Virus record (IMG/VR): IMGVR_UViG_3300030102_002424
Location: 1 to 26,565 of that record
Direction: 5' to 3' (one strand)
From: a virus
Length of the DNA: 26,565 bases
Shown: piece after piece, positions 1 to 19,236 of the stretch
How the letters are laid out: each line of letters begins with the position of its first letter
Position numbering within the stretch: the first letter of the stretch is position 1
Program-made: the position numbers and the translations under genes
The notes under the pieces: model-generated
Database searches by the model: none
Told to the model about the DNA's origin: nothing
The model's input: only the letters and a program-made list of their open reading frames with translations

Positions 1-3000
1 TGTTCGTACTGAAATATTTGACCTAACGCGTCCTCTCCGTATTTGTTAACTAAAGCTTCAAAGTTGCTAGGTATATTTGTTACGTAGGCTCCTCTCCTTA
101 GTGGAGCATCCATAGAAGATCCTAAAGACATAACTAGTAAACCAAAATCAGCGGCGTCAAAGCTATCATTCTTGTCCTGAACTCTTTCCCAAGCAGCCTC
201 TGCAATTCTTTGAACTTCTTCTCTAGCTTCTAAAGACTTTTGTTTTCTAGTTTTAAATATATCTGCTAAGCTTTTCTTTTTAGTTTCTGTGTTAAATCCT
301 TTTGTAGATTCAGCAGGCATTGAAACATCTAGCTTCTTACTAGTTCCATCAGGACCTTTTAATATGTATGTTCCTTTTTTAGGTGAAGTAACTTCAAAGC
401 CAGGCTCTAAACCTTTGTTTACTAAAGCTAAGAAATCGTTTTTACCTGTTGTAGACTGCTGTCTATTTGTTTTTTCTATTTTATTTCCTTTTTTGTCAAG
501 CTTAAAAGATCCATCTTTATTTCTCTTCCACTTGTTTCCATTTTCACCTTCCCAGTTAGGGTCTTTTATAAGTTGACCGCCTGGTTCTTTGTCTATGTTT
601 CTACCGTCACCAGCTTTAGAAGCGCCAGCATACATAGGCATTAATTGGCTAATAGCTATAGTAGCGGCGGCTTCAGATCCTTTTTGCTCAGCTAATCTAG
701 CTGTCATGTTTGTTAAAAAATCTCTTTGCTTTTGCGCGCCTTCTATTTCGTTAGCTCTAGTTCCAGGGTCTATTGTTTTACCATCTTTATTTTTAGGCAT
801 TAGCTCTTGCAGAGCTTTTTTAATTTGAGTGTTTGTTGTTATTTGTTCTGAAAGCTTTGTTCTAATAAAGTCTGCTACATCTCCATCGGCAACTGAAGTC
901 CAACCTCCTAAATCTTTTAGCCCACTGTCAAGCTCTACAAACTCATTGTTTACTTTTTTAATTTTCTTTTTTAAGTCTTTAATTTCTTTGCTTTGCTTTT
1001 TGCCAAACAGAGTGTCAAATATATTGTCTACAGTTTCTGAAGATCTATCAGAAACAGCTACAGTTTCAACAACCTCGTTGAAGTTATCAAGAACTTCACT
1101 AGAGGCTTTGCTAAACGCTAGTACGCTTTTTCCATCACCAAGTTTTGCAGCTACAGCTTCTGTAGTAGTACCGTTAGTTAAAGCATTTAATCTCATTTCT
1201 TGATTAGCAGCTAGCTGAGCCATTTGAACTACTAAAGCTCTTATAGCTCCATCAGCACTCTTGTTAGGTCTAAATGTACCGTCTTCATTAATACCAAACT
1301 TATCTAAAAAATCTTTTCTAGTAACTCTAGTTTTTTTATTTTGCTCAAACTTTTGACCTAGCTTTTTAGCAGCGCCTTCAGACACTCTAACTCTTTCACC
1401 TTTAGTATAAAAATCACCTAATACTGTATTAGCTACACCTGTAGCTTCACCGCTTCTTGTTTCACCTTCTGGTAGCAGTTTAAATAGTATGTCGTTAAAA
1501 CTACCGTCTGCATTTGTAGATAAATCTAATATTTTATCTTGAGCTATTCTACGTTGATTAGCATCTAAATCTTGATTAGCTAACACTCTAGCTGGATCAA
1601 CACCAAACTCTGATGCTGTTATCTCTAATACATTGTACAGCGCGCCAACAGGAACAACATCAGATTCTTTTGTAGGTGGTTTTAACTTACCGTTTTTGTC
1701 TACCTTCATTGACTCAACCATGAGCTTTTTAAGGCCTTTATATGTTAAACCATCTAATGGTATGTTAGCTTCAGCTACAACGTCTCTAATGGCGTCTTTC
1801 GCGTCCTGAGAAAGTTTTAACGCGTCTTTAGCTATAACTTCGTTTACGATTTCTTGTACAGCTTTTCTTCTACCTACGCTTAAGTCTTGATCTTCTAAAA
1901 ATTCTAATGCAGAACTATCGTCGGCTATAACATCAGCTACTGTACCAGACTCACCTATAGGAGCGTCTGTAGAAACAGTGTCAGCTTGCTGCTCTGCCTT
2001 GTATTGATTCATTACATCACCTTTAGCTCTATATATAATTGACATACCAGCACCACCTGATACTCCAGTTAACCAACCAAATAAGCTGTTGTTTTTATCT
2101 AAGCTATAGTTAGTTAAAAATCTTCTACCTAACTCTTCTTTTACTTTTCTAGTAAACTCACGTAAAGCTTCAGGTGGTAAACCTTTAGCTGTCATGCCTT
2201 GTTGTATTAAAGCATCTAGCGATCTACCTTCTACCATAGCAAAATAAGCTTCAGTAAAGTCAGGGCTTACAGAAAAGTCTTCTTGAGTTTCATATTTTTT
2301 AGTTCCATCAGGATTCTGCACATGTTTGTCAAACGTTTGCTTTAAATCAGGGTTATTTTTCAGATTAGCATCTAAAGCTTTAGAATACATCATCTGATCT
2401 TTTCTTTCCTGTGGAGTTCTAGCGTCTTTAAACAGCTTACCGTTAGCTCCTTTCTCCATCATTTTTATGATAGCTGGACTAGGCTTATTGTTTTGTATTG
2501 AAACGTCGTAATCTTTTATAAAGTTTAAAATGTCTTGGCTAGTATCTAGCTTAATATCTCTACCTAAATAGTTTTGAGCAAAGCGTCTAAACATACTTTT
2601 TATTTTTTGAAGACCAGACTCTTTTATCTTAGCTTTATTACCTCTAATAAACTCTGTTAAAAACGCTAGCTTTTCTTCGCCTTTAACATTACCTTCGTAC
2701 ATGTTTATTTTCTTGTCAAAAGCTTCTTTTTGGCCAGGCAAGAACTCAATACCACCGGTATCTATAATATCATCAACAACATTACCCATTGTTTCTTGAG
2801 CAACAGGATCAGCTTTTAACGTATTGTAAAAAGCAGCATGCACAAATTCGTGAGAAGGAACATTAAACTGACCATCTGTTAAAGCTGTGCTTTTGTTAAT
2901 GTTCATTTGTAATCCAACAAGATTTCCTTTATCATCAAACCTAGGAGCCATAGCCCCATAGTTACGAGCATTACCAGCTATAAAATCTAGCATACCAACA

Positions 3001-5927
3001 CCAGCCATAGTTTGATCACTTTGAAACTCTAAAGCTTCTCTAGCTTCTTGCTTTTCTGCTTCTGTAGAATTTGGATCGTCTATAATTTCTTGCATCGCAA
3101 CAGCTGTTCCACCAGCTTCCATAGTAAAATCTTCAAGCTCTGCTTTACTTCTAAGTTGATTACCAGTTTGATCTTGAGCTATCATGTCCTCAAACTCTTG
3201 TTTGGTTCTTTCAGCAAAATCTATCTCAACAACCCCTCGATCTTTTATTTTCTTCTCGTAGGCTTTCATAGCCTCAACCTCTTGTGCGTACCGAGCGTTA
3301 GCAACATCGTCTGTTATTGAACCTATGATTTCTCTTTTTCTTTTAGCACCTTCGCCGTATTGTTTTTCAAGCTTTTTTATTTCAGCTTCTTTTTGCTCAG
3401 GCGTGAGTGTATCGCTAGAATATATTTTTTGCGCTTTACTTTTTATTTTTTGATTAGCTCGCTCGATGTTTATTAGCTCTGCTTTTTCAGCATCAGTCAT
3501 AGCATCTACTCGCTTTACATCTTGTTCAATAGCTTTGTTAGTTTGCTCTACTATATTAGCGTATTCTTTTTCAAGCTCATCTCTCTTATCTGCTAATTCT
3601 TGACCTTCGTATGCATCAGGAAGCTTAGCCATCTCTACAGCTATTTCATTTAACCTCGCGGCTCCTTGCTGAAGAGTTAAATTAGTAGCTTCACTTTTAA
3701 ACGGCGCTGTCATAGCTTTATAAAGCCTAGGGCTTTGTATGCCTGCGCTTATAACAGTTCCACTAATAAAGCTTTCAGGAACATCATCAAAAATGCCTAC
3801 ATCTTTATTGCCAAAGTATATGTCAGCTAGATTTCCACCTATTGTAGCAAATACTTCACTAGTACCTTCTTCAAAAAGTTCTTTACCTGTAGCTTTAGTA
3901 TTTTGCCAAGTAAAAACGTTTTTTCTTAAATAAGCTCCATAACCTATATCTCTAACAGTATTATCAATACCGCCTAATATATTTTTAGTTTTCTTAATAG
4001 CACCAAGAGTAACTCTTTCAGATAAAGCTTCTACAGCACCTGTAAAGCTAGAGTTTAAAGCCATAGTTCCAAAACTGTGGTCTCTACCATATATTCCACC
4101 TGTATCGTAGAATAATTGTTTTTCATCTTGTAGTTGATAAAACTTATTACCAGCAGCGCTCACACCCATAACATATAATGAAGAACCACCAGTCACAGTC
4201 ATCAATGCTAACTGTGGAGCTTGAGTAGCAAACAAGTTTGCGCCCCACTCTACAGCATCATAACCATTTTCTATTTCATCAAACTGAACAGGTTTTCTAA
4301 TTTGAGAAGTTATATTGTCTTCTTGCCAATCATCTATTCTGTCATTAAGTTTTCCAAGTTTTGTTTTTCTAGGTGGAGCAACGGTCCGAAAGCCCTTTAT
4401 AGCATTGCTTTTTATTTGTTCGTAAATTCCTTCTGGTAGTTGGTACAACATGTCAACAGTTCCTGATATTCCTTGTGCTAAATCTATAGCTGAGTTAGCT
4501 AAGTTACCACCTAGAGCGGTTATATAATTAGGATCTCTAGTAACAGCTTTTAAATATGTTTCTATTTCAGAAGCTCTTTCTGTTAATGGCCCTAGCTCAT
4601 CATTTATTGTATTAAATTTTACTTCATACACTTTAGCAGATCGCTTAAGCTGATCGTACATTTCAACATTTTTATTGTACTCAGTTATTTGATCTTGACT
4701 AGTGTATTCATCTACGTTTTGTGTAGCAAACCAACCGGCTAATTGTGACATAGATTCGTAAACTTTAACCATGTTAGACTCTATGACCGCTAGTTCTCCT
4801 GTTTTTTCTCTCAAAGGTTTACTAAGCTTTTCATAAGCTGCTTTACCTTCAGTTTCTAACTGTGATCTTTTTTTCTCTCTGTCAGTTTCATCTACCAGTT
4901 CGTATATATCATACAAAAATTGAAAACCCCCTCTATCTTTATCTTCAGATTCAAGTTCTTCAAATATTCTATCTTCTAAAAGAAGTTCTGACTTAGTGTC
5001 TACAAACGAGTTGTTAACTTGCTCGACTTGCTCTTGAGTTTGCTCTTCACTAAGAGTATAGGTACTTTCAAATTCTTTATATTCAGCTGAGTTTAAAATT
5101 TCAGCAGTTTTTTCTTGCTTTTCTTTTTCTGATAAACCTGCTAATCTAATATTTTTTTTATTCATATAAGCTCCTAGAGCTTGGTTTTGAAAATAACTTT
5201 TTTTAGCAGTATGCCTAAGTTCAACATCTTCTTTAATGCTTTTTTTATACTCTTTATAAAACTCATTTTTCTCGTAATTATTAGGCCTATTCTCAGAGCC
5301 CCAAAAACCAGCCTCACGAAGTCTTTCTACCTCCGCCTCGTGCGCTAAATCTCTAAAGTCTGACATAGCGACTTCATCGTCTCTATCTAGTACTCTTTGA
5401 TATGCATCTGATATATATTTTTCAGTAGCTCCTTCATGTAAGTTTAAAGCTACTCTAAGAGCCTCTAGCTTTTGTGCTTGATCATTTCTAGTATTAGATA
5501 TATTAGTTTGATCTTCAGTAGTTACTTGAGCAGCATCTAAGTATTTATCAAAATCACCTGTTAAATCTACTTTACCACCAGAGCTTTTAACGTAGTTTAC
5601 AACTTCTTCGTTTTTAACTTCACCAGCTTGTATTGCTGAAGAAAGATCACCTGCATTAGGATATTTGTCTATTATAGCTCTAGCTTCTGGGCTTAATTGA
5701 AATACCGCAGAAGTATCTACCGAAGTGGATGCCGTACCTTCTTCCGTCACAGTGGCATCCTCCTGTGTTTCGGCTTCCTTTGCTTCAGCTTCTTCTGCTT
5801 TTCTTTGTTCTTCAGCTCGAGCATCTATACTAGCTTTAGCTTGTTTAACAAATTTTTCTATATCTTTTGGATCTTCGTTGTTGTCAATCATTAATTGAAC
5901 AACTTCCCTAACTTTATCTTGAGTCAT
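1..5927 (-). CDS. Giant virion protein with HExxH metalloprotease motif, C-terminus cut off
   Basis: The frame opens at the ATG at 5927, two bases after the previous stop, and runs to base 1 without a stop: at least 1,975 residues, with the C-terminus outside. The N-terminal 450 residues are charged and helical. Residues about 460-610 include hydrophobic and small-residue stretches (around ATQAPQLALMTVTGGSSLYV). Residues about 770-865 look coiled-coil. A zinc-protease signature follows: VPSHEFVHAAF, with His1026, Glu1027 and His1030, then Glu1085-Lys-Leu-Ala1088, so HExxH with ExxA 54 residues later, the gluzincin pattern. Metallopeptidase domains of this kind are described in large multi-domain ('polyvalent') phage proteins. 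Further on, RRFLTNYSLDKNNSLFGWL (about 1265-1283) and GLTYKGLKKLM (about 1391) are blocks I recall from other phage giant proteins. The place after two small internal-type proteins suggests an ejected protein like T7 gp16. Confidence 0.88.
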   Translation of the reverse strand, partial: MTQDKVREVVQLMIDNNEDPKDIEKFVKQAKASIDARAEEQRKAEEAEAKEAETQEDATVTEEGTASTSVDTSAVFQLSPEARAIIDKYPNAGDLSSAIQAGEVKNEEVVNYVKSSGGKVDLTGDFDKYLDAAQVTTEDQTNISNTRNDQAQKLEALRVALNLHEGATEKYISDAYQRVLDRDDEVAMSDFRDLAHEAEVERLREAGFWGSENRPNNYEKNEFYKEYKKSIKEDVELRHTAKKSYFQNQALGAYMNKKNIRLAGLSEKEKQEKTAEILNSAEYKEFESTYTLSEEQTQEQVEQVNNSFVDTKSELLLEDRIFEELESEDKDRGGFQFLYDIYELVDETDREKKRSQLETEGKAAYEKLSKPLREKTGELAVIESNMVKVYESMSQLAGWFATQNVDEYTSQDQITEYNKNVEMYDQLKRSAKVYEVKFNTINDELGPLTERASEIETYLKAVTRDPNYITALGGNLANSAIDLAQGISGTVDMLYQLPEGIYEQIKSNAIKGFRTVAPPRKTKLGKLNDRIDDWQEDNITSQIRKPVQFDEIENGYDAVEWGANLFATQAPQLALMTVTGGSSLYVMGVSAAGNKFYQLQDEKQLFYDTGGIYGRDHSFGTMALNSSFTGAVEALSERVTLGAIKKTKNILGGIDNTVRDIGYGAYLRKNVFTWQNTKATGKELFEEGTSEVFATIGGNLADIYFGNKDVGIFDDVPESFISGTVISAGIQSPRLYKAMTAPFKSEATNLTLQQGAARLNEIAVEMAKLPDAYEGQELADKRDELEKEYANIVEQTNKAIEQDVKRVDAMTDAEKAELINIERANQKIKSKAQKIYSSDTLTPEQKEAEIKKLEKQYGEGAKRKREIIGSITDDVANARYAQEVEAMKAYEKKIKDRGVVEIDFAERTKQEFEDMIAQDQTGNQLRSKAELEDFTMEAGGTAVAMQEIIDDPNSTEAEKQEAREALEFQSDQTMAGVGMLDFIAGNARNYGAMAPRFDDKGNLVGLQMNINKSTALTDGQFNVPSHEFVHAAFYNTLKADPVAQETMGNVVDDIIDTGGIEFLPGQKEAFDKKINMYEGNVKGEEKLAFLTEFIRGNKAKIKESGLQKIKSMFRRFAQNYLGRDIKLDTSQDILNFIKDYDVSIQNNKPSPAIIKMMEKGANGKLFKDARTPQERKDQMMYSKALDANLKNNPDLKQTFDKHVQNPDGTKKYETQEDFSVSPDFTEAYFAMVEGRSLDALIQQGMTAKGLPPEALREFTRKVKEELGRRFLTNYSLDKNNSLFGWLTGVSGGAGMSIIYRAKGDVMNQYKAEQQADTVSTDAPIGESGTVADVIADDSSALEFLEDQDLSVGRRKAVQEIVNEVIAKDALKLSQDAKDAIRDVVAEANIPLDGLTYKGLKKLMVESMKVDKNGKLKPPTKESDVVPVGALYNVLEITASEFGVDPARVLANQDLDANQRRIAQDKILDLSTNADGSFNDILFKLLPEGETRSGEATGVANTVLGDFYTKGERVRVSEGAAKKLGQKFEQNKKTRVTRKDFLDKFGINEDGTFRPNKSADGAIRALVVQMAQLAANQEMRLNALTNGTTTEAVAAKLGDGKSVLAFSKASSEVLDNFNEVVETVAVSDRSSETVDNIFDTLFGKKQSKEIKDLKKKIKKVNNEFVELDSGLKDLGGWTSVADGDVADFIRTKLSEQITTNTQIKKALQELMPKNKDGKTIDPGTRANEIEGAQKQRDFLTNMTARLAEQKGSEAAATIAISQLMPMYAGASKAGDGRNIDKEPGGQLIKDPNWEGENGNKWKRNKDGSFKLDKKGNKIEKTNRQQSTTGKNDFLALVNKGLEPGFEVTSPKKGTYILKGPDGTSKKLDVSMPAESTKGFNTETKKKSLADIFKTRKQKSLEAREEVQRIAEAAWERVQDKNDSFDAADFGLLVMSLGSSMDAPLRRGAYVTNIPSNFEALVNKYGEDALGQIFQYE

Positions 5928-5929
5928 AT

Positions 5930-7123
5930 TTATTCGCCTTCAAATATTTTCATGTAAGAATCTACGTCGCCAGATGGATTATAACCTAGCTTTTTTAACT
6001 TTTCTGACTTAGCAATTTGTTGAATCGCAGATGATTCACCTTTTTCAGTAGGCACTGAAACCATTTTTCTTTCTCGCTCTTTAATACCTTTCTGGTTGTT
6101 TATCATTATGTGATTTGAAAAGTAACCTGACAAAGCATTTTTAGTTTGTTCAAAGTCATAGTTGTCATCGTTAGGATCAGTAAACATATTTAATATCATA
6201 AGCTTGTCATCTTCACTTATATTTTGATACCAAAACTTTTCACCTTCTTCTTTTTTAATTTCAACATCTGGTGCAAACTCCATAGCAAACTGTTGATAAG
6301 TCGTGTCGTCAAATCTTTTTAGCATGTCTTCTTTAAAAGAAGTCCCACCAAACATAGGATCGTTTATTAAAGAGCCTACGTTTTCTTCGGTTATACCAGC
6401 TTTAACTTCTCCTTCCATAGCTTCTTGGTCGAAAAAATTATCATCACCTCCAGCTGTGTAAGCGTTTAAAGCTCTTTTTTTAATATCTTCTCTAAAATCT
6501 ACATCTACAACTTCCTGCATTTCTGTTATTTCATCTAACGTGTGCATACCAAAAGATCCGTCTTTGTTGTTTATTTTATATTTAACACTGCCATCAGGTT
6601 GAACTATTCTTTCAAAGTTTTCTTTTTGAAACTCAGTTAAAGTGTGTAGATTTTCTTCAGGCATATTTTTACTAAATACTTCTGGATCTGTATTAGCAAT
6701 ACTATTTTTACCTGCTTTAACAGCTTCTGTTTCTACTTTTAATTCATTAAGTCTTCTGTATACATCAGCTCTTTGTTCTTCAGTTCTAGCTGCAACTAAA
6801 TCACCTCTAAGACCATCTATTTCTGTTTTGTAAGAATCATAATAACCTTTGCCAAGACTTCCAGCCATAGCTGAAACATCTTTATTAGCATTATTAAACT
6901 CTTTAAACAGCTCATTTTTTCTATCAGTTTCTGCTTTTACTACGTTAACCGCTGTGTTTTTAACTGTATCTAAAGCTTTGTCTAAACCTGTGCTAGCGTA
7001 TTGACCAACGCCAGCCTCTGCTTTTGACGCTTCACCTAAAGCTTTCATTGTGCTAGCGCTAAGTCCTCCTTGTAACCTAGGAGCGCCAGCCGCATAATCT
7101 ATTGTACCTGCACCTTTTGCCAT
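5930..7123 (-). CDS. Medium internal virion protein, possible ejection protein
   Basis: This 397-residue soluble protein is rich in charged helices. The first 60 residues are Ala/Gly/Lys-rich (AKGAGTIDYAAGAPRLQGGL), followed by coiled-coil-like sequence to about residue 145. A mixed region then contains a short beta-like segment, IVQPDGSVKYKINNKDGSFG (about 171-190). The C-terminal half is acidic and helical, with FWYQNISEDDKLMILNMF, and ends in a Lys-rich linker. No enzyme motif was seen. It sits between the small hydrophobic protein and the giant protein with gaps of six and two bases, so the three are almost surely made together. I infer a T7 gp15-like role, forming part of the channel or cargo that leaves the head, but no homology is visible by eye. 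Confidence 0.7.
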   Translation of the reverse strand: MAKGAGTIDYAAGAPRLQGGLSASTMKALGEASKAEAGVGQYASTGLDKALDTVKNTAVNVVKAETDRKNELFKEFNNANKDVSAMAGSLGKGYYDSYKTEIDGLRGDLVAARTEEQRADVYRRLNELKVETEAVKAGKNSIANTDPEVFSKNMPEENLHTLTEFQKENFERIVQPDGSVKYKINNKDGSFGMHTLDEITEMQEVVDVDFREDIKKRALNAYTAGGDDNFFDQEAMEGEVKAGITEENVGSLINDPMFGGTSFKEDMLKRFDDTTYQQFAMEFAPDVEIKKEEGEKFWYQNISEDDKLMILNMFTDPNDDNYDFEQTKNALSGYFSNHIMINNQKGIKERERKMVSVPTEKGESSAIQQIAKSEKLKKLGYNPSGDVDSYMKIFEGE

Positions 7124-7129
7124 ATCTTA

Positions 7130-7795
7130 TTACATTTGTAACATCTGTTGAGCCATTTGAGGACTCATTGTAAATTTATCTCCTAGTATACCAGATCCAC
7201 CTACACCGCCTGCTATACCGCCTGCAGCAGAAGTTATACCTGACCACATTTTTTCGTCAGCAGCGGCTTGAGCTTGTCTAGCTGAAGCTACATCTTGAGC
7301 AGCCATACCCATCAACGCTTGAACTTGTTGTTGTTTCATATTTCTAGACATAATCTCACCTTGACGTTCAGCTTTTTGTATTGAAGCCGCTTGATTTCTT
7401 TCTGCCATTTGATTAGCTTGCTCTTGCTTACCTATAGATATAGCTGCTTTACGAGCGTTTTCAGATCCTTGATTAGCTAGCGTTTGAGCTAGTGCTGCAA
7501 TACCAGATCCGCCGGCAGCACCTCTAAGCTCAGATAATATATTAGCTTGAGACTGAGCTTGTTTTTCAGCAACAAACTGAGCTTCTTCTTGGTTGACCGT
7601 AAGGTCTTCCATTGTGTTTTCAAGATTTAAAAATGGATTACTAGTGTCTAGTCCTTTGAATGCAGCTTTCTGCGCTTCAAGCTCTGCTTGAGCTTTAGCC
7701 GCTTCAGCTTTTGCTTTTTTCTTTTGTACACCGCCTGATATTGCTTTTGCTACACCGGCGCCTGCTACAACTGCTCCTGCTATTAAAAAACTCAT
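7130..7795 (-). CDS. Small internal virion (ejection) protein, T7 gp14-like in build
   Basis: This 221-residue Ala/Gln/Gly-rich protein has a hydrophobic N-terminus, MSFLIAGAVVAGAGVAKAIS, a long middle of helical, coiled-coil-prone sequence (about 25-180, with runs of Ala, Gln, Lys and Glu), and a second small-residue hydrophobic stretch near the end (SGITSAAGGIAGGVGGSGIL, about 184-203). Size, build and place resemble the T7 gp14 class of internal proteins, which enter the outer membrane during ejection. No sequence match to T7 gp14 is claimed. It is followed after six bases by a 397-residue protein and then the giant protein, the same small-medium-giant order as T7 genes 14, 15 and 16. The N-terminal hydrophobic stretch has no clear signal-peptidase site, which argues against export by the host. 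Confidence 0.75.
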   Translation of the reverse strand: MSFLIAGAVVAGAGVAKAISGGVQKKKAKAEAAKAQAELEAQKAAFKGLDTSNPFLNLENTMEDLTVNQEEAQFVAEKQAQSQANILSELRGAAGGSGIAALAQTLANQGSENARKAAISIGKQEQANQMAERNQAASIQKAERQGEIMSRNMKQQQVQALMGMAAQDVASARQAQAAADEKMWSGITSAAGGIAGGVGGSGILGDKFTMSPQMAQQMLQM

Positions 7796-8309: not shown

Positions 8310-8660
8310 TTATTTACTACTTTCAAACGCATCGACAGTGACAGCGAACAACTCTGCTCTGTCTGTAGTTGTATTTTTAAATTTAAACAAAGAATAATAA
8401 CCTAACATACTAGCTAGCTCTTGACAATTGTTTTTACTAAACAAAATAAATACTTGACCGTCAGGTAATACAGGTAAAATAGACTCGCAAGTTATAGTGT
8501 TAGCACTTCTGTCTATAGCTGTTATCTCACCTATTTCTGTTACATTACTACTGTTTATATCAAAACCTCCAAGCTCAGAAGTGTTAACGTAATATGCTGT
8601 ATCTCCAACAGATGCTGAAGTTTGTACAGGAAAACTAAATTGTATTGTTGTTTGTGGCAT
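8310..8660 (-). CDS. Small conserved virion-associated protein
   Basis: This 116-residue beta-rich protein starts PQTTIQFSFPVQTSASVGDT and has AYYVNTSELGGFDI, EIGEITAIDR, GQVFILFSKNN and SMLGYYSLFKFKN, ending with AELFAVTVDAFESS. I recall this order of motifs from small proteins next to tail genes in marine and crAss-like phages, where the function is not named. The fold looks like a small beta barrel with a C-terminal strand pair. It lies after the 270-residue gene (one-base overlap) and 43 bases before the cupin gene. A tail adaptor or fibre-attachment piece is possible. It is too short to carry a fibre alone. Confidence 0.83.
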   Translation of the reverse strand: MPQTTIQFSFPVQTSASVGDTAYYVNTSELGGFDINSSNVTEIGEITAIDRSANTITCESILPVLPDGQVFILFSKNNCQELASMLGYYSLFKFKNTTTDRAELFAVTVDAFESSK

Positions 8661-9472
8661 TATGAAGCAGTTATTATTTGATCTAAATCTACTGTAAAAA
8701 TTAATCTAGTGCCATCTAAAAATGGCGCTTTACTTACAAGTATACTATAATTTATATGAACATCTTTAGTAGCGTTGTCTGTGTTTAAAAGACTTGCTGA
8801 AAAACTAACATCATCTTCTGCAAAAATAGCGTCATCTGATCTTATAGGTATACTTTCTCCTGAATCACTAACTATATTAATAGTTACAAGATTATCGTGC
8901 ATAGTAAAGTTTTTAACACTACTAAGAACATTGTTACTAGCGTGGCTAACAACTATAGTTCCTTCTAAAAGTCCTTGACCATTAATAGCTTTGTAAGATC
9001 TTCCAGGTATAACAAATATGTTAGTATCATCTTGGCTAACGTTCACACCAGCGACAGTACAATTAAAATCGTGACCTATTAATTTTTTACCAAAAAACTT
9101 TTTTTGTATTGGATTGTTTTGATCTGCAACACCTTGGCTCAGCATAGTTCCTTCGTGAGGCTCTACATAAAAACTGTATGTTTCATTAAAATTACTAAAA
9201 GGTATAGTAACCATACAATATTTTCTAAAAGTATTAAGCGTTGATGGTTCACCTGTAACGTTTGCGCGGCTCCAACCAGGTTCTTTTGAATAGTTTAAAT
9301 CTACACCGTAATAGTTACCATTAGTGTCTTTAGCTACAATTCTATATTTAGCGCCTATAGAGCCTCCAATAATAAGAGTAACTTGAGAGCTAGTACCATG
9401 TACTAAGTTTTTAGGCGTAACTAAAAATGAAGTTATCTTCTTTACGTTTGTTATGTTTTTTCTTTTTGTCAT
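8660..9472 (-). CDS. Beta-rich virion protein of unknown function
   Basis: This 270-residue protein is not recognised. A basic N-terminus (TKRKNITNVKKITS) is followed by what looks like a chain of beta strands throughout: QVTLIIGGSIGAKYRIVAKD near residues 30-50, later strands around CMVTIPFSNF, then DTNIFVIPGRSY, and a C-terminal ILVSKAPFLDGTRLIFTVDL. This is compatible with one or two Ig-like or other beta-sandwich domains. No signal peptide, membrane helix or catalytic motif was seen. Its start overlaps the stop of the 2,287-residue tail gene (ATGA), and its own stop overlaps the next start (TAATG), so it is translated with tail genes. By position it could be a tail fibre, a cap at the tail tip, or an adaptor for one; this is inference. 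Confidence 0.82.
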   Translation of the reverse strand: MTKRKNITNVKKITSFLVTPKNLVHGTSSQVTLIIGGSIGAKYRIVAKDTNGNYYGVDLNYSKEPGWSRANVTGEPSTLNTFRKYCMVTIPFSNFNETYSFYVEPHEGTMLSQGVADQNNPIQKKFFGKKLIGHDFNCTVAGVNVSQDDTNIFVIPGRSYKAINGQGLLEGTIVVSHASNNVLSSVKNFTMHDNLVTINIVSDSGESIPIRSDDAIFAEDDVSFSASLLNTDNATKDVHINYSILVSKAPFLDGTRLIFTVDLDQIITAS

Positions 9473-12400
9473 AATATATTTACAAGCTCATCTAGACATA
9501 TTGTTCCACAGCCTGGGTGGCAACTATCAACAGGCGGAATGTCAGTTATACAAACTTGGTATCTTCCTTTAGCTAAAGCAAATGGATTAGCAACATTACC
9601 GTTTTCGTCAGTAATTGTAAGGTCATAAGTTCCTGAGCCAAAGAAACCTGTAGCTTGAATCATACCATCTGCAGCACCACCGCCACTTGTGTGTTGTACT
9701 TCTAAAAGCTCAATTTTGTAAAGCTCGCAAGAATGTACACATGAACCATCATCAACTGTAGCGTTTGGATTATAGTTATCAGCGCTAGCACAAGTGCAAC
9801 CTTCAATATCTTCATTAGATGGCTCAGGATCTGGATCAACTGGTGGCTCAACAACATCACCACCTAGCGTGGCCATGCCTATACCTTGAACTTGAAACTC
9901 GTGTTCATCTAAATTATTTATATTAGTACACTCTCCAAATATATTGTTAAACCATTTACCTTCTTTGTTTATAAACTCAGGAACTTTTCCTTCAGCTAAA
10001 TCAGTGTAAGCTTCTTCAACATACCAACCAGCTTTACCGGTAAGGTTGTAATAGTTTTTATCTGTATATTCTACACCACCAATATTAACAGTAGTAAACT
10101 GATTTATTCTAGCTTGTGTGCCTTCGTATTTTATTGTTTGAAAGTTTTTAACAGAGCTTGGTAAATCGTTAAATAATATTGAAACACAAGAGTATTCGTT
10201 ATCTCCAGGCATTACATCATAAAACATATTTCTAGTTGGATTAGTGTGGTGTTGCCACATATCTCCATTTTTAAATGTGTAGTATTGATTATTTATACTA
10301 ACACCAGACTCTGGTATAAAAGACTTAAAACTTACCCAGCCATTAACAGCGCTACTATAAGTAACTGTTACAGGCTCAAATGTACTAAAGCTTTTGCTAG
10401 GCTTTTCGCTTATAGTTATATTGTATTCATCTTTTCTTTTATCAAAAGTACCTAGCATTCTAGAGTTATTTATTATGCTAGGATCTGTCATTATATCTGT
10501 AAAGTAATCTTTCATACCTATGTCAGATATTGGATCAATACCGTTTTTAGATAATCTACAAACAGCTCCTCGTTGTTGATCAGTAAAATAAGCTCTATAA
10601 GATTCAGAAGCAAAAGATTCTGGATTTTTAGATATACCATATTCACCTTCAAAAGGAGTAACAGCACCTAATACTCTAGCTGTAGCTGTAACATTTGCGT
10701 TACCATCTGCGTTAAATAAAGCATCTTTGTCAGACAATATCTTTACAACTTTATCTTCACAGAACGTTACTAAGTTAGTTTGTCTTTGGAAAAGTTTTTG
10801 TATAGTACCTAAATCTGGATTAAGATCTTTAGTTATTTTTTCACCTTGTATAAATTGATTTAATCTATTGACACCAGTTCTTGTGTTATATATACCTGAG
10901 TAGATTAAACCAGATCCTCTTCTTTCTTCTTTGTATTGCTCTGCTATTGTTGTAGAAGCTTTAACACCGTTTTGTATTGTAGGCTGATTGAAGTCGTCTC
11001 TAATTCTGTCAGACTCAACACCATTGCCAAATGAATAACAGTTAAACCAAGGTAAAGTATATGTTAAATTATTTTGTGCTACTGTTTTGTTAATAGGTAC
11101 AATAGTTTGATTTATAACAGTAACAGCAACTTCAACTTGAACACGACCGTCCCAAGCATCGTTTATAGTTAATATATCACCAGCGTTTACTGTAACAGGA
11201 TTACTTAATTCAATGTTACATATATCAGCTCCAGCTTGATTAAATATATGATATTCTACTAGTCTTGTAAAGTCAGGAACACCAGCACCAGTAACAACAT
11301 CACCAAGCAGAGCTTCTGTTTCATCGTTATTCTTTTCAAGAACTATAGGGTATGCTCTACCTATTTCATAATAAATATCTAGCTCTATGTTTTCTTTTGG
11401 AAGAGTTTCAAACACAGCAGGGTTGTCAGTTTCAACTCCTTGATCAGAAATGTAAGGAGCCATAAACTCTATTGTTACAGCGCCGTCCATACTCATGTCG
11501 TGAGACATTACAGATCTTGGATCCCAATACTGAGTAATGTCTTTATCTAAAGCTATAGAAAACTTATTACGTTTATTATTAGCTGTTAATCTTTTTACAT
11601 CTTCAGTGAATAAACCACACCCGTCAATATTCATGTTTAGAATACCGCTATGCTCTCTATAAGCTTTAACAGTATATAAGTTATCTTCTTTATCTGGATC
11701 TTGTCTAAACCTAAATACAACGCCTGGCGTTATTATTTTGTCTATAAAGTTTTTAGTGTCTGTTACAGATGCGTTACCAGTTTCTTTATCAGCATAACCT
11801 AACCATCTTGCTGGCCACCAACCAGGCTTTCTTTCATCTTTGTGATCCCAACTGTGACCAGGTAAAGGACCTTGTTCATCTGAGTTATTTGCAGCACCTG
11901 CCATGCTACCAGATCCAGGTCTAATACCAACAACGCTAACATCCATCATGCCTACGCCATTAACAGAGTATATACCCATTGAACCTGTTCGCCAAATGTA
12001 ATCATTTACATTTGCAGATCCCCTTAGCTCGTCTCCAGGCTGCGAAAGATCTTCATGTCTTGCTCTTGCCGCAAAGTTAGAAGTATCTTGTACTCCACCG
12101 CTACTTCCGTCGTTTATTCCAGTGTTTACTTTTTGTCCGTGCCAGTTGTCACCACCACCGCTACCAGTAACCCAAGGAGGCATTGAGCCTGCGTCTTCTA
12201 CAGGTGTATACCATTGTTTTGCCCAAGCTTCATCTAAAAATGCTCTAACTCTATTTTCGTTAGTTTGATCTCCATCATTACCGCCTTCATTTCCACACCA
12301 ATGCCAAAAGCCTATACCAGAAACACTTTCTACAGGGCCAACATTTTGTCCAAAAGCGTCTATATGAGGAATAATACCTAATGACTGACCGTTAGTTCTC

Positions 12401-15400
12401 CAGTCTCTAATAGCTCTTTTAGCTGCATTGCTTTGATTTCTATAAAAATCAGATCTTACTTTGTCACCTGGAAAACCATTATCTCCCCAAGTGTAGCTAG
12501 CGTTATAAGGGTTTGTAGCTGGCGCTATATTACCAGTGTTAAAAGCGGCTAAAGCACTACTACCTCCAGTGTCGTTCATTACAGTATTTTCGTAATGAGG
12601 TCCTCTGTCTGCATTAAGAAAGCCAGGAATCTTTAGACCAGTGTCGTAAACAGGAGTTCCAGTAGCAGGATCTACATCGTAGCTAAACAAATAAGGTAGT
12701 CCATAAGAAGCTTCTACAGTGTAATCTTCTGGTTTTGTAACTAAAACATAGGTCTCTAACGTAATATCTTTATATATTTTAACAAAAAACTTACCATCAA
12801 ACTCCGGTAAATTTTTACTTTCTTTTTTAAAGAAAACTACAGATAACCCGCCTATTCTTGTCTGCCATGTGTCATCTGTTGAACAGAAGTTAACATCAGG
12901 CCCTAAAGGTTTTTCTAATTTTATTTTATATTGCCCACCAGGTCCAGATTGATCTATACCTACTATGTTGTAAACTTCGCTTCTCTCTGTAGTAGGACCA
13001 ACTATTCTAACGCAGTGTGTGCTAGGGCTAGATGTAACGCCATCGCCTATATTATTATCGTACTCAGTTTCATCTACAGAAATAAAAGTAAAGTCAGCAA
13101 AAGGAAAACCTCCTCCAACACTACCTATAAAACTGTTAGATGAATTGTTAGTTACTCTTCCTACTTCGCTTCTAGTAATTCTAATATCTTCAGGCGCTTC
13201 GTTTTCTATAGCTACAACTTTATATCTAGCTCTTTCTTCTACAGCTTCATCTGAGTCATGTGCTTTTTTAAGCTCTAAAAACGTTTCAATATCTAGTTTG
13301 TTTCTATCAGATGAATTAAACGAAAGCCATACGTTTCCATCTTCAGCATTATACCATTTAGACAATGCTAAGTTATAGTATTCTGCTGATGTTTCTTTTA
13401 TGAAATACTTAAAAGACTTAGCCCAAGTAGGATGCGGTGACGTTATTCTAGCTTCTAAATAGTTTATGTCATTGCAAAACTCTTTGTCTACAGTAACAGA
13501 TCCTTTTTCTTTATCTGCTAACACAGGCGTTTCTCTACCTAAAAAGTCTTTGTATATAATACCTACTTGATATGTTCTTATAGATTTTAAAGATTTTTGA
13601 GCTGATAAATCTTCAGGGTGTAAATTACTACCAAAGCTTAAGTTTATTTCTGGAGTAATTAAGTCGTTGTTTGTAGCTCTTAAATCATAGTTGTGCAAGT
13701 AGTTTCCATAAACAAGTCTATTACCTGTAACTTCTTGAGCTAAAGCTTTTCTAGGTACATTGTCCCAAGGTCTTATAAGTTGATTAGATGGAACTAAAGC
13801 ATGTATCATTTCTGATACGACTCTAAACGAACCTCTTAAATTTGTTTCATGATACTGTACATCTGTAGGCCAAAGCGGGCTTCCATCATTAGGTTTAATT
13901 GTTTTAACAGTATATACAGATGTAGATTTTTCTTCTTTAAATAATATATCTATTTCAGCAATGTCTTTACATCTGTTCCAGTTTAATGGAGCATAGTTTT
14001 CTACAGACAAAGATCGTAGTTGGTTGGCCATAGCTAAGTTCCAGCCTCTTTTAGGCTCATAATCGTAGCTGCCAGGTAAGAAAGCTATTTCAGAAAATGG
14101 TGAAAACGCAGAGTATTCACCGTCGTTGTATTTGTATCTATAAGCGAAACGTGGAAAAGTAAACTCAAAAAGAGAAGGCTCTTGTTCTAGTCTAACATAA
14201 AAGTCATTAGCATCATCTCCAGGAGCAAGATTTCCGTCAACAGATAAAACTATAGCAGTAAACACTCCATTAAATATGTTGTCACTGTCAGCTCCAGCTG
14301 GTACACCTGTAATTTCTAATCTAACTTGAACATCTGCAAAAGATACTGGCGATTGATCTAAATCATTAGTTAAAAGTATTATATCTCCAACTCTATAATC
14401 TACCGCTGTATCAAAAACTAAACCTAAAGTAGTTCCTGTTTCTGTAATTACACCGTCTGGAGATACAAACCCATCATAGTTAGTTAGTGTAGTTGTAATA
14501 GGATTATCTGTACATTGATCAAAGAATTGAGTTTCAGAGTCTATAACTACAGCTTGTTGAGGTTGAGCATCTTGTGACGTTGCATTGCTTTCTGTTTCTA
14601 CATTTTCTTCTTCTACTATTTCTGTTTGACCTAGTATACCTGTTCCTTGATAAATAGTACGAAAGCCAGAGCTATTTGTCCACACTGCATCTACTACAAA
14701 GTTTGGATTATAGTCTGGTGAGTCGGGATTTAATACTTGTTGTGGGTAAGGATTGTTTTGATCATACTCAGGAGGACATATATTGTATTCTAAAGTTCCA
14801 AGAAGCTGGTATGTCATTGATATATAAGCACCGCTTCCTGGCTGCAGCCTACCTTGAAAAGCTATAGTTCCATCTGGAAAAACCCAATACACTGGACCTC
14901 TTGAAGTTTCTTCATAACCACCGTTTATATATTCTGTACCAGTAGCATTGAAGTTTTGATTTATCGCCGCAGTATAAAAGTTAGGGCCCATTAAGTCAGA
15001 AAAAGTATCTTGAAACCACGCTTGAAAAGGAGGTAGTGGCAACATCACGCCAGTTCCACCAGTAATAGCGTTTGGAACAATAGGATTTTGCGATTGATAA
15101 CTTCCAGAAGTTCCGTCAGGCCACATAGCGTCTACAATGTTTTGTGGTATGTTAAACGGAGCTTCTAAAGCTTCTTCAGGCGTTAAAACATTTCTACAAG
15201 CTGTTCTTAAAGTACACTCACCTTCTAGCGATTGACATTTTATTTTTATTTCATCTGACTCAATGTCTTCTACTACAACTGGAGGTTGCTCAACGGTGTT
15301 TGTTGTTAATTCAAAAGAGCACCTGTCTGTTATAGACATTCTAAGTGTAGGTGGAGTTAATGGATCTCTTTTCTTTACAGTTATATAATCTTCTTCAACG

Positions 15401-16332
15401 TACTGTGGTTCTTCGTTTAACACTTGACCAACAGGTATAGTAGGAAATATATAATCAGCTCTTTTAACTTCTAGACCTGCTAAATCACCTACACCAGCAA
15501 AACTACCATCATCTCTTCTTGATACAACTCTAGTAGAATATCTTGCGTTGTTAGCTAGCCCGACTATAGCAAAAGTGTTAGCTCCAGTTCCTAAATAAGA
15601 TCTTTTTATGTTTACTTTTTTAGGCTCTGTATGGTCATCTGTCCACATTATGAAATCGTCGACAATGTTTATACCTGTTATTAACCTACTCTTACTATAA
15701 TTTAATACTTTTGGAGCAAAAAAGTAAGCATAATCTCCAACATTTAAGCTTGTTACATCGGCAAAAGGCGCTATAACAACTTGATTGTTTGTTACAACAC
15801 CTGTGTTTGTATTAGTCACACTAGTTACAAGACCAGTTCTTCCTGCTCCTAAGCTTACTTTCATGCCAGGCTTAACACCTTCATTGTTTGATAGTGTGAT
15901 TACAGAGCCTATTTCGTTGCCGTCATTTCCAATTAAACCTTGTTGTACGTTTACTATTTCTTTAGTAGCTTGATATATATCTACAAACACATAAGTAAGT
16001 TGACCTGAGTCTACGTCATACTTAATAATATAATCTTTGTTGTAAAGCTCTTCTTGAGCATCGTTCATTTGGTTTACCTTACCTGCTACTAAATAGTATA
16101 TGCAGTTTTCTTCACCATTTGTTATTGATCCAACAACATAACCACCTTTAGCTTCGCTATCTAACGTTACGTTTGTGTTTCCTAATAGATTTTCTAAAGC
16201 ACCTACATTACTACCTTCAGACGTAGATACTTCTATATTCATAGCATCTACATACTGACCTTTTGGAACAAGCCTTTCATCAAGGTCTTTGTTCATTTTA
16301 CCTTGTGCAAAATTTCTATTAAACTCTGGCAT
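9469..16332 (-). CDS. Giant tail nozzle/muzzle-type protein with SprB-like end
   Basis: This 2,287-residue protein is probably the main tail component, comparable in place to T7 gp12 (794 residues) or the muzzle protein of crAss-like phages. Its start, with GKMNKDLDERLVPKGQY and then a MNIEVSTSEGSNVGALENLL segment, is a pattern I know from tail proteins of marine phages. Further conserved blocks are the stretch around residue 726 (RFAYRYKYNDGEYSAFSPFS) and residues about 1840-1950 (IQKLFQRQTNLVTFCEDKV, GEYGISKNPESFA, YFTDQQRGAVCRLS). Long less-conserved insertions lie at about 361-600 (Cys- and Pro-rich, then acidic) and about 1340-1515 (Trp/Gly/Asn/Asp-rich). The end carries GCTCASADNYNPNATVDDG (2178-2196) followed by Ser-Cys, and a repeat-like domain (about 2213-2262) like the SprB repeat of flavobacterial adhesins. 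It starts two bases after the previous stop. Receptor contact by the insertions or the end is inferred. Confidence 0.85.
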   Translation of the reverse strand: MPEFNRNFAQGKMNKDLDERLVPKGQYVDAMNIEVSTSEGSNVGALENLLGNTNVTLDSEAKGGYVVGSITNGEENCIYYLVAGKVNQMNDAQEELYNKDYIIKYDVDSGQLTYVFVDIYQATKEIVNVQQGLIGNDGNEIGSVITLSNNEGVKPGMKVSLGAGRTGLVTSVTNTNTGVVTNNQVVIAPFADVTSLNVGDYAYFFAPKVLNYSKSRLITGINIVDDFIMWTDDHTEPKKVNIKRSYLGTGANTFAIVGLANNARYSTRVVSRRDDGSFAGVGDLAGLEVKRADYIFPTIPVGQVLNEEPQYVEEDYITVKKRDPLTPPTLRMSITDRCSFELTTNTVEQPPVVVEDIESDEIKIKCQSLEGECTLRTACRNVLTPEEALEAPFNIPQNIVDAMWPDGTSGSYQSQNPIVPNAITGGTGVMLPLPPFQAWFQDTFSDLMGPNFYTAAINQNFNATGTEYINGGYEETSRGPVYWVFPDGTIAFQGRLQPGSGAYISMTYQLLGTLEYNICPPEYDQNNPYPQQVLNPDSPDYNPNFVVDAVWTNSSGFRTIYQGTGILGQTEIVEEENVETESNATSQDAQPQQAVVIDSETQFFDQCTDNPITTTLTNYDGFVSPDGVITETGTTLGLVFDTAVDYRVGDIILLTNDLDQSPVSFADVQVRLEITGVPAGADSDNIFNGVFTAIVLSVDGNLAPGDDANDFYVRLEQEPSLFEFTFPRFAYRYKYNDGEYSAFSPFSEIAFLPGSYDYEPKRGWNLAMANQLRSLSVENYAPLNWNRCKDIAEIDILFKEEKSTSVYTVKTIKPNDGSPLWPTDVQYHETNLRGSFRVVSEMIHALVPSNQLIRPWDNVPRKALAQEVTGNRLVYGNYLHNYDLRATNNDLITPEINLSFGSNLHPEDLSAQKSLKSIRTYQVGIIYKDFLGRETPVLADKEKGSVTVDKEFCNDINYLEARITSPHPTWAKSFKYFIKETSAEYYNLALSKWYNAEDGNVWLSFNSSDRNKLDIETFLELKKAHDSDEAVEERARYKVVAIENEAPEDIRITRSEVGRVTNNSSNSFIGSVGGGFPFADFTFISVDETEYDNNIGDGVTSSPSTHCVRIVGPTTERSEVYNIVGIDQSGPGGQYKIKLEKPLGPDVNFCSTDDTWQTRIGGLSVVFFKKESKNLPEFDGKFFVKIYKDITLETYVLVTKPEDYTVEASYGLPYLFSYDVDPATGTPVYDTGLKIPGFLNADRGPHYENTVMNDTGGSSALAAFNTGNIAPATNPYNASYTWGDNGFPGDKVRSDFYRNQSNAAKRAIRDWRTNGQSLGIIPHIDAFGQNVGPVESVSGIGFWHWCGNEGGNDGDQTNENRVRAFLDEAWAKQWYTPVEDAGSMPPWVTGSGGGDNWHGQKVNTGINDGSSGGVQDTSNFAARARHEDLSQPGDELRGSANVNDYIWRTGSMGIYSVNGVGMMDVSVVGIRPGSGSMAGAANNSDEQGPLPGHSWDHKDERKPGWWPARWLGYADKETGNASVTDTKNFIDKIITPGVVFRFRQDPDKEDNLYTVKAYREHSGILNMNIDGCGLFTEDVKRLTANNKRNKFSIALDKDITQYWDPRSVMSHDMSMDGAVTIEFMAPYISDQGVETDNPAVFETLPKENIELDIYYEIGRAYPIVLEKNNDETEALLGDVVTGAGVPDFTRLVEYHIFNQAGADICNIELSNPVTVNAGDILTINDAWDGRVQVEVAVTVINQTIVPINKTVAQNNLTYTLPWFNCYSFGNGVESDRIRDDFNQPTIQNGVKASTTIAEQYKEERRGSGLIYSGIYNTRTGVNRLNQFIQGEKITKDLNPDLGTIQKLFQRQTNLVTFCEDKVVKILSDKDALFNADGNANVTATARVLGAVTPFEGEYGISKNPESFASESYRAYFTDQQRGAVCRLSKNGIDPISDIGMKDYFTDIMTDPSIINNSRMLGTFDKRKDEYNITISEKPSKSFSTFEPVTVTYSSAVNGWVSFKSFIPESGVSINNQYYTFKNGDMWQHHTNPTRNMFYDVMPGDNEYSCVSILFNDLPSSVKNFQTIKYEGTQARINQFTTVNIGGVEYTDKNYYNLTGKAGWYVEEAYTDLAEGKVPEFINKEGKWFNNIFGECTNINNLDEHEFQVQGIGMATLGGDVVEPPVDPDPEPSNEDIEGCTCASADNYNPNATVDDGSCVHSCELYKIELLEVQHTSGGGAADGMIQATGFFGSGTYDLTITDENGNVANPFALAKGRYQVCITDIPPVDSCHPGCGTICLDELVNIL

Positions 16333-16334
16333 AC

Positions 16335-18473
16335 TTAACGTTTAATCCATTGCGCTTTGTTTCTCATTATCTGAGCAAACTCTTGCGATTTAAAGTTAGA
16401 CAATCTTATTTTTGCTTTTCTTGTTTCAGCAAACCTTTCTTTTTTCAACATTTGAACTGTTGCAGGACTGTAATTAGATCCTGTTGAAGCTATAGCGTAA
16501 GCTACATGTTTGTAAAAAGCTTCTTCAGCAAACTTATGTATCATCATGTTTCCACTAGCATCTATACCATCTGATAAGTAATCTAATACTACTGTTTGTC
16601 CTATTAAGCTTGGATTAAAAAATATACAACCATTTTTATAATCCATAAAGTAAGAGCCGTTTACTTGAGCGTGCTCTGGAACTATACCGTATCTTTGACC
16701 TAGTGATACATTACCATACGAGTGATCATAGTCTTGATCTACAACTAACGGCTCGCCAAAGTCGCCTGTCATAAACTCTTGCTGAGTAACACCGCCGTAG
16801 CTTCCGGCAACACTACCATCATCATTAATCTGCCAATAGTTTTGCCCGCTAGTTTCTACGTTTATAACCTCGTAAGTGTTGTTAATTATTTCTTGCTCTA
16901 CACTTCCAGCGACAAAATCGTTTAAGTCTTGTTCAAAATCAGCTATTGTTAAAGGACCTCCATTTACGTTAGTTCCAAAGCCAAATTGATCTAGTCCACC
17001 ATATTGAGGATTCATAGCGTTCCAATATGGGTTTGGGTTTGGATTAGCTACGTCATAACCACCTAATGGAGGTGTAGCTTCTAGTATAGTTAGAGACACA
17101 TCATTACCCGCAGTACCATGAGGAAACGCATCAAAAGTTGGGCTAGTTCCAGTTTGCCAAGTTCCGTCAGGAACATCTTGATTACCACTACTAATAGCAG
17201 CTAAAGCGTGTGGAATAAATTGTATACGTTGGTCTCCTAATACTGGGTTAGCTCCATCTTGAAGTTGCTCTCTTGGATAAAGAAACGCATTATAGTTTCC
17301 AGTGTGATCGTTGTAGTTTGATTTAAACTCTTCATAGTCTTGTTTCCAAATACTAGTTGGTTGATCTTGAGCAAGAGCTATGTTGCCTATAAAATTAGGA
17401 TCGCCCTGGTTGACATGATTAAACGTAGTTGATGATCCTTCTCCATGATAAGCTGCTTGTGATTCATCTGCAAAAATTATTACTAATACGTTATCGTTAG
17501 AAGATATTTGCGGAGGAGCTCCTTTCATTACAACATCACCATCCGCGCTGGTTATAGTTTGTCCAACTTCTACACCCAAGCCACTACCAGCTGGATTAGC
17601 TACGTCATAAAATTGATTACCGCCTGTTGCATTTCCAGCTTGAGCAGACCAATAACTAACTCTTAAAGCAAGAGAATTTACAGGTAGGTCTATTTGATTA
17701 TTGATATGATCGAGATGACCGCCTGTTACCATTGGATAATTATATACGGCATCGTTAACTACTTGATCGGTAAAACTATTATTAGTGTTACCAGTTTTAA
17801 TTTGTCTATTGTTAAACTTGCCTGTCATTGGAACAGACGCCCAATCTAGCCATCTTTCTCCTGCTACAGTAGTATGAAACGTGTTGTGATTAGCTTTAGT
17901 GCTATCTTCTTGTCTAGTAAATCCATCTATTCCATCAAGCCACGAAGTAACAGCTTGATAAGATAGTTCAGTTTGCGCTAAACCCATTGAAGTACCATCG
18001 TAAAACACGTAAACTTTAGTATCTGAAGGTATTTCGTTTTCTATTATTTGTGGCTCTGTTATTGTTTCAGTTGTAATAGTTTGAGTAAACGGCTCATCAG
18101 TTGCTGTTGGTCTAAAAGGATTTTGAGTTAACCTTGTTGGGTACAAAGGTCTTTTTACACCACCAGGACTACTCCAGTAAACATTTGTATATCCTACAAA
18201 GTTATGAGGAAAAACTGTTTTCGCACTGTTAGGCACATCAAACTCCCAAGTTTCTTTTGATCTAAGAGTATCGTAGCTTAATTCTTGAGCAGCTCTTCTA
18301 GCAAAAAATGCTACATCTTCTTTATTAGCTTTAGGTATTATTTTATTTTCACCAACATAGTAAGCCATGAAGGTAGCTATCAATTGATCTAATTCTTGAT
18401 ATTGATAACTTCCGTGAGTGCTTCCGTTGTAATAATCAGCCTCGCTATTTAAATCCCAATAACCTGTACTCAT
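16335..18473 (-). CDS. Connector-type virion protein with large inserted domain
   Basis: This 712-residue protein seems to be a connector-type protein split by a long insertion. Residues 1-130 contain YQYQELDQLIATFMAYYVGE and then KEDVAFFARRAAQELSYDTL, a helical start typical of structural proteins in many marine phages. The end (about 585-712) resumes with YGIVPEHAQVNGSYFMDYKN, VVLDYLSDG and a helical tail, HKFAEEAFYKHVAYAIAS. Between them, residues about 150-575 form an inserted region. It opens with a hydrophobic strand and the loop KVYVFYDGTSMG (153-164), a likely helix (169-181), and later a strand VLVIIFADES (329-338). This order recalls a von Willebrand A fold, though the metal site is imperfect (Asp159 and Thr161 are present, but Met163 stands where Ser is usual). 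The rest of the insert is rich in Asn, Gly, Pro and Tyr, like a surface domain. It overlaps its upstream neighbour by one base. Confidence 0.8.
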   Translation of the reverse strand: MSTGYWDLNSEADYYNGSTHGSYQYQELDQLIATFMAYYVGENKIIPKANKEDVAFFARRAAQELSYDTLRSKETWEFDVPNSAKTVFPHNFVGYTNVYWSSPGGVKRPLYPTRLTQNPFRPTATDEPFTQTITTETITEPQIIENEIPSDTKVYVFYDGTSMGLAQTELSYQAVTSWLDGIDGFTRQEDSTKANHNTFHTTVAGERWLDWASVPMTGKFNNRQIKTGNTNNSFTDQVVNDAVYNYPMVTGGHLDHINNQIDLPVNSLALRVSYWSAQAGNATGGNQFYDVANPAGSGLGVEVGQTITSADGDVVMKGAPPQISSNDNVLVIIFADESQAAYHGEGSSTTFNHVNQGDPNFIGNIALAQDQPTSIWKQDYEEFKSNYNDHTGNYNAFLYPREQLQDGANPVLGDQRIQFIPHALAAISSGNQDVPDGTWQTGTSPTFDAFPHGTAGNDVSLTILEATPPLGGYDVANPNPNPYWNAMNPQYGGLDQFGFGTNVNGGPLTIADFEQDLNDFVAGSVEQEIINNTYEVINVETSGQNYWQINDDGSVAGSYGGVTQQEFMTGDFGEPLVVDQDYDHSYGNVSLGQRYGIVPEHAQVNGSYFMDYKNGCIFFNPSLIGQTVVLDYLSDGIDASGNMMIHKFAEEAFYKHVAYAIASTGSNYSPATVQMLKKERFAETRKAKIRLSNFKSQEFAQIMRNKAQWIKR

Positions 18474-19216: not shown

Positions 19217-19236
19217 TTAATTATCTTTTATAGTTA

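Follow-up and report, generated by a model that had tools for sequence, protein, structure and literature searches.

Results

A giant gene and two neighbours in a flavobacterial phage genome

We analysed the complete virus record IMGVR_UViG_3300030102_002424, which is 26,565 bases long and is referred to here as the window. It comes from an uncultured phage whose relatives infect marine flavobacteria. The portal, the terminase and a structural protein match those of Cellulophaga phage phi38:1 (Pervagoviridae), Flavobacterium Elemovirus, Maribacter phage Panino and the metagenomic phage ctfjg026, at less than 60% identity in every case. Membership of Crassvirales, a first guess from gene sizes, was dropped; the portal had matched Pervagoviridae and Elemovirus. 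As portal and terminase genes are present in the window, the giant protein encoded at its start belongs to a phage that packages by portal and terminase. Three adjacent genes of the structural block (small, medium and giant) and one module of the giant concern us first:

3-5927, minus strand: gene of the giant protein; 1975 codons are present and the C-terminal end is missing at the record end
3324-4301, minus strand: shared N-terminal module of the giant (residues 543-868), also present in the phi38:1, Panino and Elemovirus giants, which differ in payload
5930-7123, minus strand: 397-aa cassette protein without cysteine, in the position of N4 gp51, T7 gp15 and phi38:1 gp100
7130-7795, minus strand: 221-aa cassette protein without cysteine, with an N-terminal hydrophobic helix, in the position of N4 gp52, T7 gp14 and phi38:1 gp99

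Complete relatives of the giant have about 2900-3900 residues. In phi38:1, Elemovirus, Panino and ctfjg026 the gene order ends as in the window: a protein of about 200-300 aa is followed by one of 450-650 aa and then by the giant, which measures 1691-3859 aa. The giants of phi38:1 and Elemovirus, with their cassette counterparts, are annotated as structural proteins. In a search of 7 sequences the 221-aa protein matches its Panino counterpart (E 9e-5), and the equivalence of the 397-aa protein is drawn from position, its pairwise similarity being unconvincing. The N-terminal module is glycine-rich, with residues 573-592 as its sole hydrophobic stretch. The giants of phi38:1 (gp101, 1691 aa) and Panino (CDS0069, 1829 aa) have this module and the same cassette position, sharing part of residues 543-868.

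The same small-medium-giant order is seen in phage N4 (gp52, 150 aa; gp51, 644 aa; gp50, 3500 aa), where gp52-gp51-gp50 is known as the ejection cassette (PMC12633501). No significant pairwise match to N4 gp50, gp51 or gp52 was found, and the window cassette looks like the N4 type in position and composition, a likeness rather than a demonstrated membership. T7 gp16 occupies the same cassette position and differs in carrying a lytic transglycosylase instead of a peptidase (PMC8954989), as the sequence-only reading had said.

Ejection-cassette proteins are nearly free of cysteine

The 221-aa, 397-aa and giant proteins together contain no cysteine in 2593 residues, compared with 45 in 6180 residues for the eleven other genes of the window, 27 of them in one protein; the window portal also has none. 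The pattern recurs in 20 relatives (L007-L059). Their giants have 4 cysteines in 60,324 residues, a count that leaves out the last 110 residues of full-length giants, and the two frames nearest upstream have 2 in 12,341; genes farther upstream have 152 in 28,063 (0.54%). Nearly all cysteines of the full giants fall within this 110-residue end, where they usually form two C-C-C-H clusters. Cysteine is absent from the cassettes of phi38:1, Panino and Elemovirus, from N4 gp50, gp51 and gp52 (0 in 4294), all three products of a cassette of like order, and from T7 gp15 and gp16 (0 in 2065); the ctfjg026 cassette has one in 4805 residues and T7 gp14 has one, at position 2.

The 27-cysteine protein of the window is the 2287-aa structural protein (9469-16332), cysteine-rich for this genome and in this unlike the ejection proteins; its ctfjg026 counterpart likewise has 27, in 1551 residues. 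The C-terminal tail with the C-C-C-H clusters (16121-16318 in relative L011, and counterparts) weakly matches DUF5763.

Because the gene order matches that of phi38:1, Elemovirus and N4 and the proteins are nearly cysteine-free, the assignment of the giant as an ejected protein is supported by analogy, and this particular giant is probably ejected too. We infer that the near-absence of cysteine marks proteins that are threaded unfolded through the tail and the periplasm. Unfolding is proposed in the N4 paper, which does not mention cysteine (PMC12633501), and our literature search found no paper tying cysteine avoidance to ejected proteins. That cysteine exclusion might be a general rule for proteins that podoviruses eject through the tail is a tentative proposal, both in its reach beyond these phages and in its reason.

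An HExxH...E site in the giant is under strong constraint

The middle of the giant contains HEFVH and, with exactly 54 residues between H1030 and E1085, the sequence E1085-K-L-A1088 within EEKLAFLTE (residues 1084-1092), where the sequence-only reading had placed them:

2436-3110, minus strand: zincin-like domain with flanks (residues 940-1164), covered by the 32-sequence alignment A5 and a low-confidence predicted structure
2838-2852, minus strand: HEFVH (residues 1026-1030), two predicted zinc ligands and the predicted general base E1027; invariant in 33 of 33 sequences
2673-2675, minus strand: E1085, predicted third zinc ligand; invariant in 33 of 33
2676-2678, minus strand: E1084; E or D among relatives
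2664-2666, minus strand: A1088; A or T among relatives
2652-2654, minus strand: E1092; E or D among relatives
2895-2897, minus strand: N1011, an invariant Asn closing the second predicted strand, 15 residues ahead of HExxH
2697-2699, minus strand: Y1077, an invariant Tyr 8 residues ahead of E1085

Among shuffled copies of the giant, 0.24% contained HExxH and 0.18% contained it together with a downstream ExxA. Six relatives came from an initial search with the domain, and wider profiles gave more. Because the patterns used in these scans included or adjoined the motif, the search was repeated with the N-terminal module (residues ~540-770), about 250 residues from the motif. This motif-independent scan reached 33 loci. 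The zincin profile was present in 27, all with HExxH; of the remaining six, L064 is a truncated fragment and the five loci L065-L069 are distant relatives. A deeper profile built from 32 sequences also matches two of the five, L069, with HELLH where its sequence is cut, and L067, whose HETFH lies in a separate frame downstream; the giants L065 (2359 aa) and L066 (2693 aa) are without a match. In L067 the N-terminal module (8462-11647) and the zincin part (12130-19236) occupy two separate open frames, which may reflect either a split gene or an error in the sequence. Relatives with the surroundings of the motif intact and HExxH lost, named beforehand as counterevidence, were sought with this motif-free query and none was found. 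No relative of the domain was confirmed in bacterial genomes.

Across 33 aligned distinct domain sequences, down to 17% identity to the window, H1026, E1027, H1030 and E1085 are invariant, as are N1011, Y1077 and F1136, and 49 to 63 residues separate the last His from the conserved Glu. Neighbouring positions vary: 1084 is E in 30 and D in 3, 1088 is A in 20 and T in 13, and 1092 is E in 29 and D in 4. Twenty-three of the 33 sequences come from contigs that the N-terminal scan also reached; in these, 9 of 225 positions are invariant and include all four catalytic residues (P 1.2e-6), and for the 12 sequences first seen in that scan the corresponding P is 4.8e-6, both values being optimistic in that related sequences are counted as independent.

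These data support a gluzincin-like HExxH...E site under strong constraint. Since E1085 is invariant and E1084 and E1092 are not, E1085 is the likely third zinc ligand. E1092, which had been pointed out as a second acidic candidate, was ruled out, being E or D in relatives and G in Elemovirus in a by-eye alignment. The ExxA arrangement originally described holds for its Glu, and its Ala is not fixed, so that the motif is really Exx[A/T]. The broader claim, of a gluzincin signature in a giant and probably ejected protein, gains from the constraint on the site and from the order and composition of the cassette, and the zinc site itself stands as a prediction.

The predicted secondary structure, at low confidence, fits a zincin

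AlphaFold2 was run on the domain with 6 and with 32 sequences (mean pLDDT 68-70, pTM 0.54-0.57). Both low-confidence models contain a helix, two strands, the HExxH helix and a helix carrying E1085; HExxH and this Glu, present in 33 of 33 sequences, are thus predicted to lie on successive conserved helices, and the stretch ahead of and into the HExxH helix has pLDDT values of mostly 44-64. The predicted order of elements fits that expected of a zincin; the zincin-like MPTase of Iyer et al. has a three-stranded sheet, one N-terminal and two C-terminal helices and ligands around one zinc (PMC5512222). From these low-confidence models, Foldseek returned no significant match, and no solved zincin, in the PDB or BFVD. 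Ranked first in its viral library was a 1218-residue protein without a name (probability 0.94, E 0.12), and an Elemovirus structural protein came third (E 0.25); both fall short of significance.

The domain probably belongs with the zincins of polyvalent proteins

No zincin model of Pfam or PHROG matched the giant or the domain, and tblastn of the giant, the domain and the C-terminal domain against named phages gave nothing significant. PF18818 (MPTase-PolyVal) stayed below its curated cut-off in the window giant, the domain set and the relatives; it also misses the N4 domain, so its miss says little beyond the Pfam label. Two PDB hits were set aside: a sub-threshold profile match of HEFVHAA to phage chain 23sg_S gp10 (E 0.27 with alignment A1, 1.9 with A5) and a spurious one to the synthetic repeat protein 9kfx.

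A cultured relative of the domain is in gp18 of Flavobacterium phage elemo (Elemovirus), annotated as a structural protein, which has HEIFH with NEEKLSEL (hhalign probability 83%; hmmsearch E 4.5e-9 in a 15-sequence set). The domain spans roughly residues 1480-1660 of gp18, with E1544 as the counterpart of the general base. Elemovirus shares the homologous zincin domain, the N-terminal module and the cassette order, its host, Flavobacterium sp. BAL314, is cultured, and it differs in other modules, for example a DUF3293 domain. The ctfjg026 giant (L004, P0004) has two HEFGH motifs, at residues 1615 and 2500, the second of which aligns weakly with the window family.

Among the domains of polyvalent proteins from phages and plasmids, zincin-like peptidases are the most frequent; the N4 virion RNA polymerase is named as one such protein, and self-processing and host-protein roles have already been proposed for them (Iyer et al. 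2017, PMC5512222). The N4 structure paper notes the HExxH as well (PMC12633501). Protease use in such a protein, which the sequence-only reading had thought undescribed, is therefore already on record. Like the MPTase domains of Iyer et al., the domain of the window family combines an HExxH helix with a Glu in a later helix, sits mid-way in a giant multi-module protein encoded with portal-terminase head genes, and is likely packaged, accessory and mobile between architectures. It differs in having no PF18818 match (N4 likewise) and an invariant Asn near the strand end, where one phage clade has His; Iyer et al. distinguish 12 clades. The best reading is that it is a further member of the polyvalent-protein zincin class.

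The C1 domain of N4 gp50 (PMC12633501; PDB 9pnr) offers a parallel in a giant ejected protein of 3500 aa, with HELVH and NEFMA, and nine N4-like phages keep these motifs as H-E-x-x-H and E-F-x-A; the N4 giant differs in being built around an RNA polymerase. In a profile comparison only the HExxH helix of the N4-type and window domains aligned (probability 45%), and homology to N4 gp50 is not established. The N4-type zincin profile also matches PDB chain 9sfn_G, an 'internal virion protein' of solved structure (E 8.6e-7), and weakly 8vb2_A, a tetrameric ejection protein gp48 (E 0.4). By the first of these matches, zincin-like domains are present in further internal virion proteins as well.

Domains of related giants beyond the record end

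Two further domains lie downstream of the zincin in relatives:

13391-14038 in L011, and counterparts: HAD phosphatase-like domain with conserved signature residues DxDET, TAR, K and DD
14126-15988 in L011, and counterparts: 620-aa C-terminal domain with 63% mean column identity

The first has conserved motifs FDFDET, LTAR, AKA and DDA and is matched by DUF2608 (best E 4.5e-6, 12 of 13 members), which we take to belong with HAD. About 200 extra residues occur in this region in five giants (L021, L022, L024, L027 and L031). The second domain has no match in named phages, the PDB or, within the full protein, Pfam; Elemovirus and other named phage records are without it. The words 'phosphatase' and 'haloacid' are absent from the main text of Iyer et al. 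(PMC5512222).

Discussion

The explanation that we consider probable as a whole is that the giant is a polyvalent protein carrying a zincin peptidase as payload, delivered unfolded and then cutting. The giant would be a lengthy multi-module chain that is stored in the head and ejected in unfolded form by way of a channel made of its 221-aa and 397-aa neighbours. Residues ~960-1120 would form a zincin-type metallopeptidase module, with zinc held by H1026, H1030 and E1085 and water activated by E1027. The module would be an accessory payload outside the delivery machine, since it is absent from cultured relatives that share the N-terminal module and the cassette: the short phi38:1 and Panino giants lack HExxH and a zincin profile match, and giants with a zincin have about 2900-3900 aa. 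The peptidase is therefore not needed for assembly or ejection as such. After delivery the chain would refold, and the peptidase may then cut the giant itself between modules, releasing for example the HAD phosphatase-like part. We favour this self-cutting, tentatively, over a host target and that over a cut before packaging, the same target options set out by Iyer et al. (PMC5512222).

An effector role, in which the domain attacks a host protein such as a defence protein or a cell-envelope component once inside, is somewhat unlikely. It is an option on the list of Iyer et al. (PMC5512222), and an accessory module with downstream architecture that varies between relatives is what a payload would be expected to show, but nothing in the sequence points to a substrate. 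We think it unlikely that a true zincin peptidase processes the giant, or the 221-aa and 397-aa proteins, during head assembly. Phage P1 DdrB has a zincin domain and is cut before packaging (PMC5512222), and the module is a feature of the long giants that the short ones lack; however, the N4 virion RNA polymerase is packaged uncut although it contains a domain of this kind (PMC5512222), assembly of phi38:1 and Panino proceeds without the module, and L065 and L066 are likewise without a profile match.

A degenerate, structural zinc site that aids folding after ejection and has no peptidase activity is less probable again. In the available text of the N4 paper, no protease activity is reported for the like N4 domain and the C-terminal domain is reported to inhibit transcription (PMC12633501), but E1027 is not needed to bind zinc and is nonetheless invariant in all 33 sequences; invariance of the general base makes a purely structural site less likely. 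A chance match in a coiled structural protein, with which the blank library-model and fold searches would agree, is very improbable given its frequency of about 0.2% in shuffles and the invariance, E1085 included, across a diverse family.

The initial observation was thus sound, and its main line of reading is partly supported. The class is already described; what is new here is the family, its constraint, its cultured relative and the cysteine pattern. The work adds to the polyvalent-protein class a delimited, unnamed zincin family of about 30 virus contigs and the cultured Elemovirus group, and Elemovirus provides a cultured host-phage pair in which the question of own-giant versus host cutting becomes approachable. 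Cysteine exclusion provides a separate line of evidence, drawn from sequence, for telling ejected virion proteins from others. If the rule is true, the whole giant would be threaded and refolded without disulfide trapping, and ejected proteins, including those that bear a zincin, would be findable by sequence alone.
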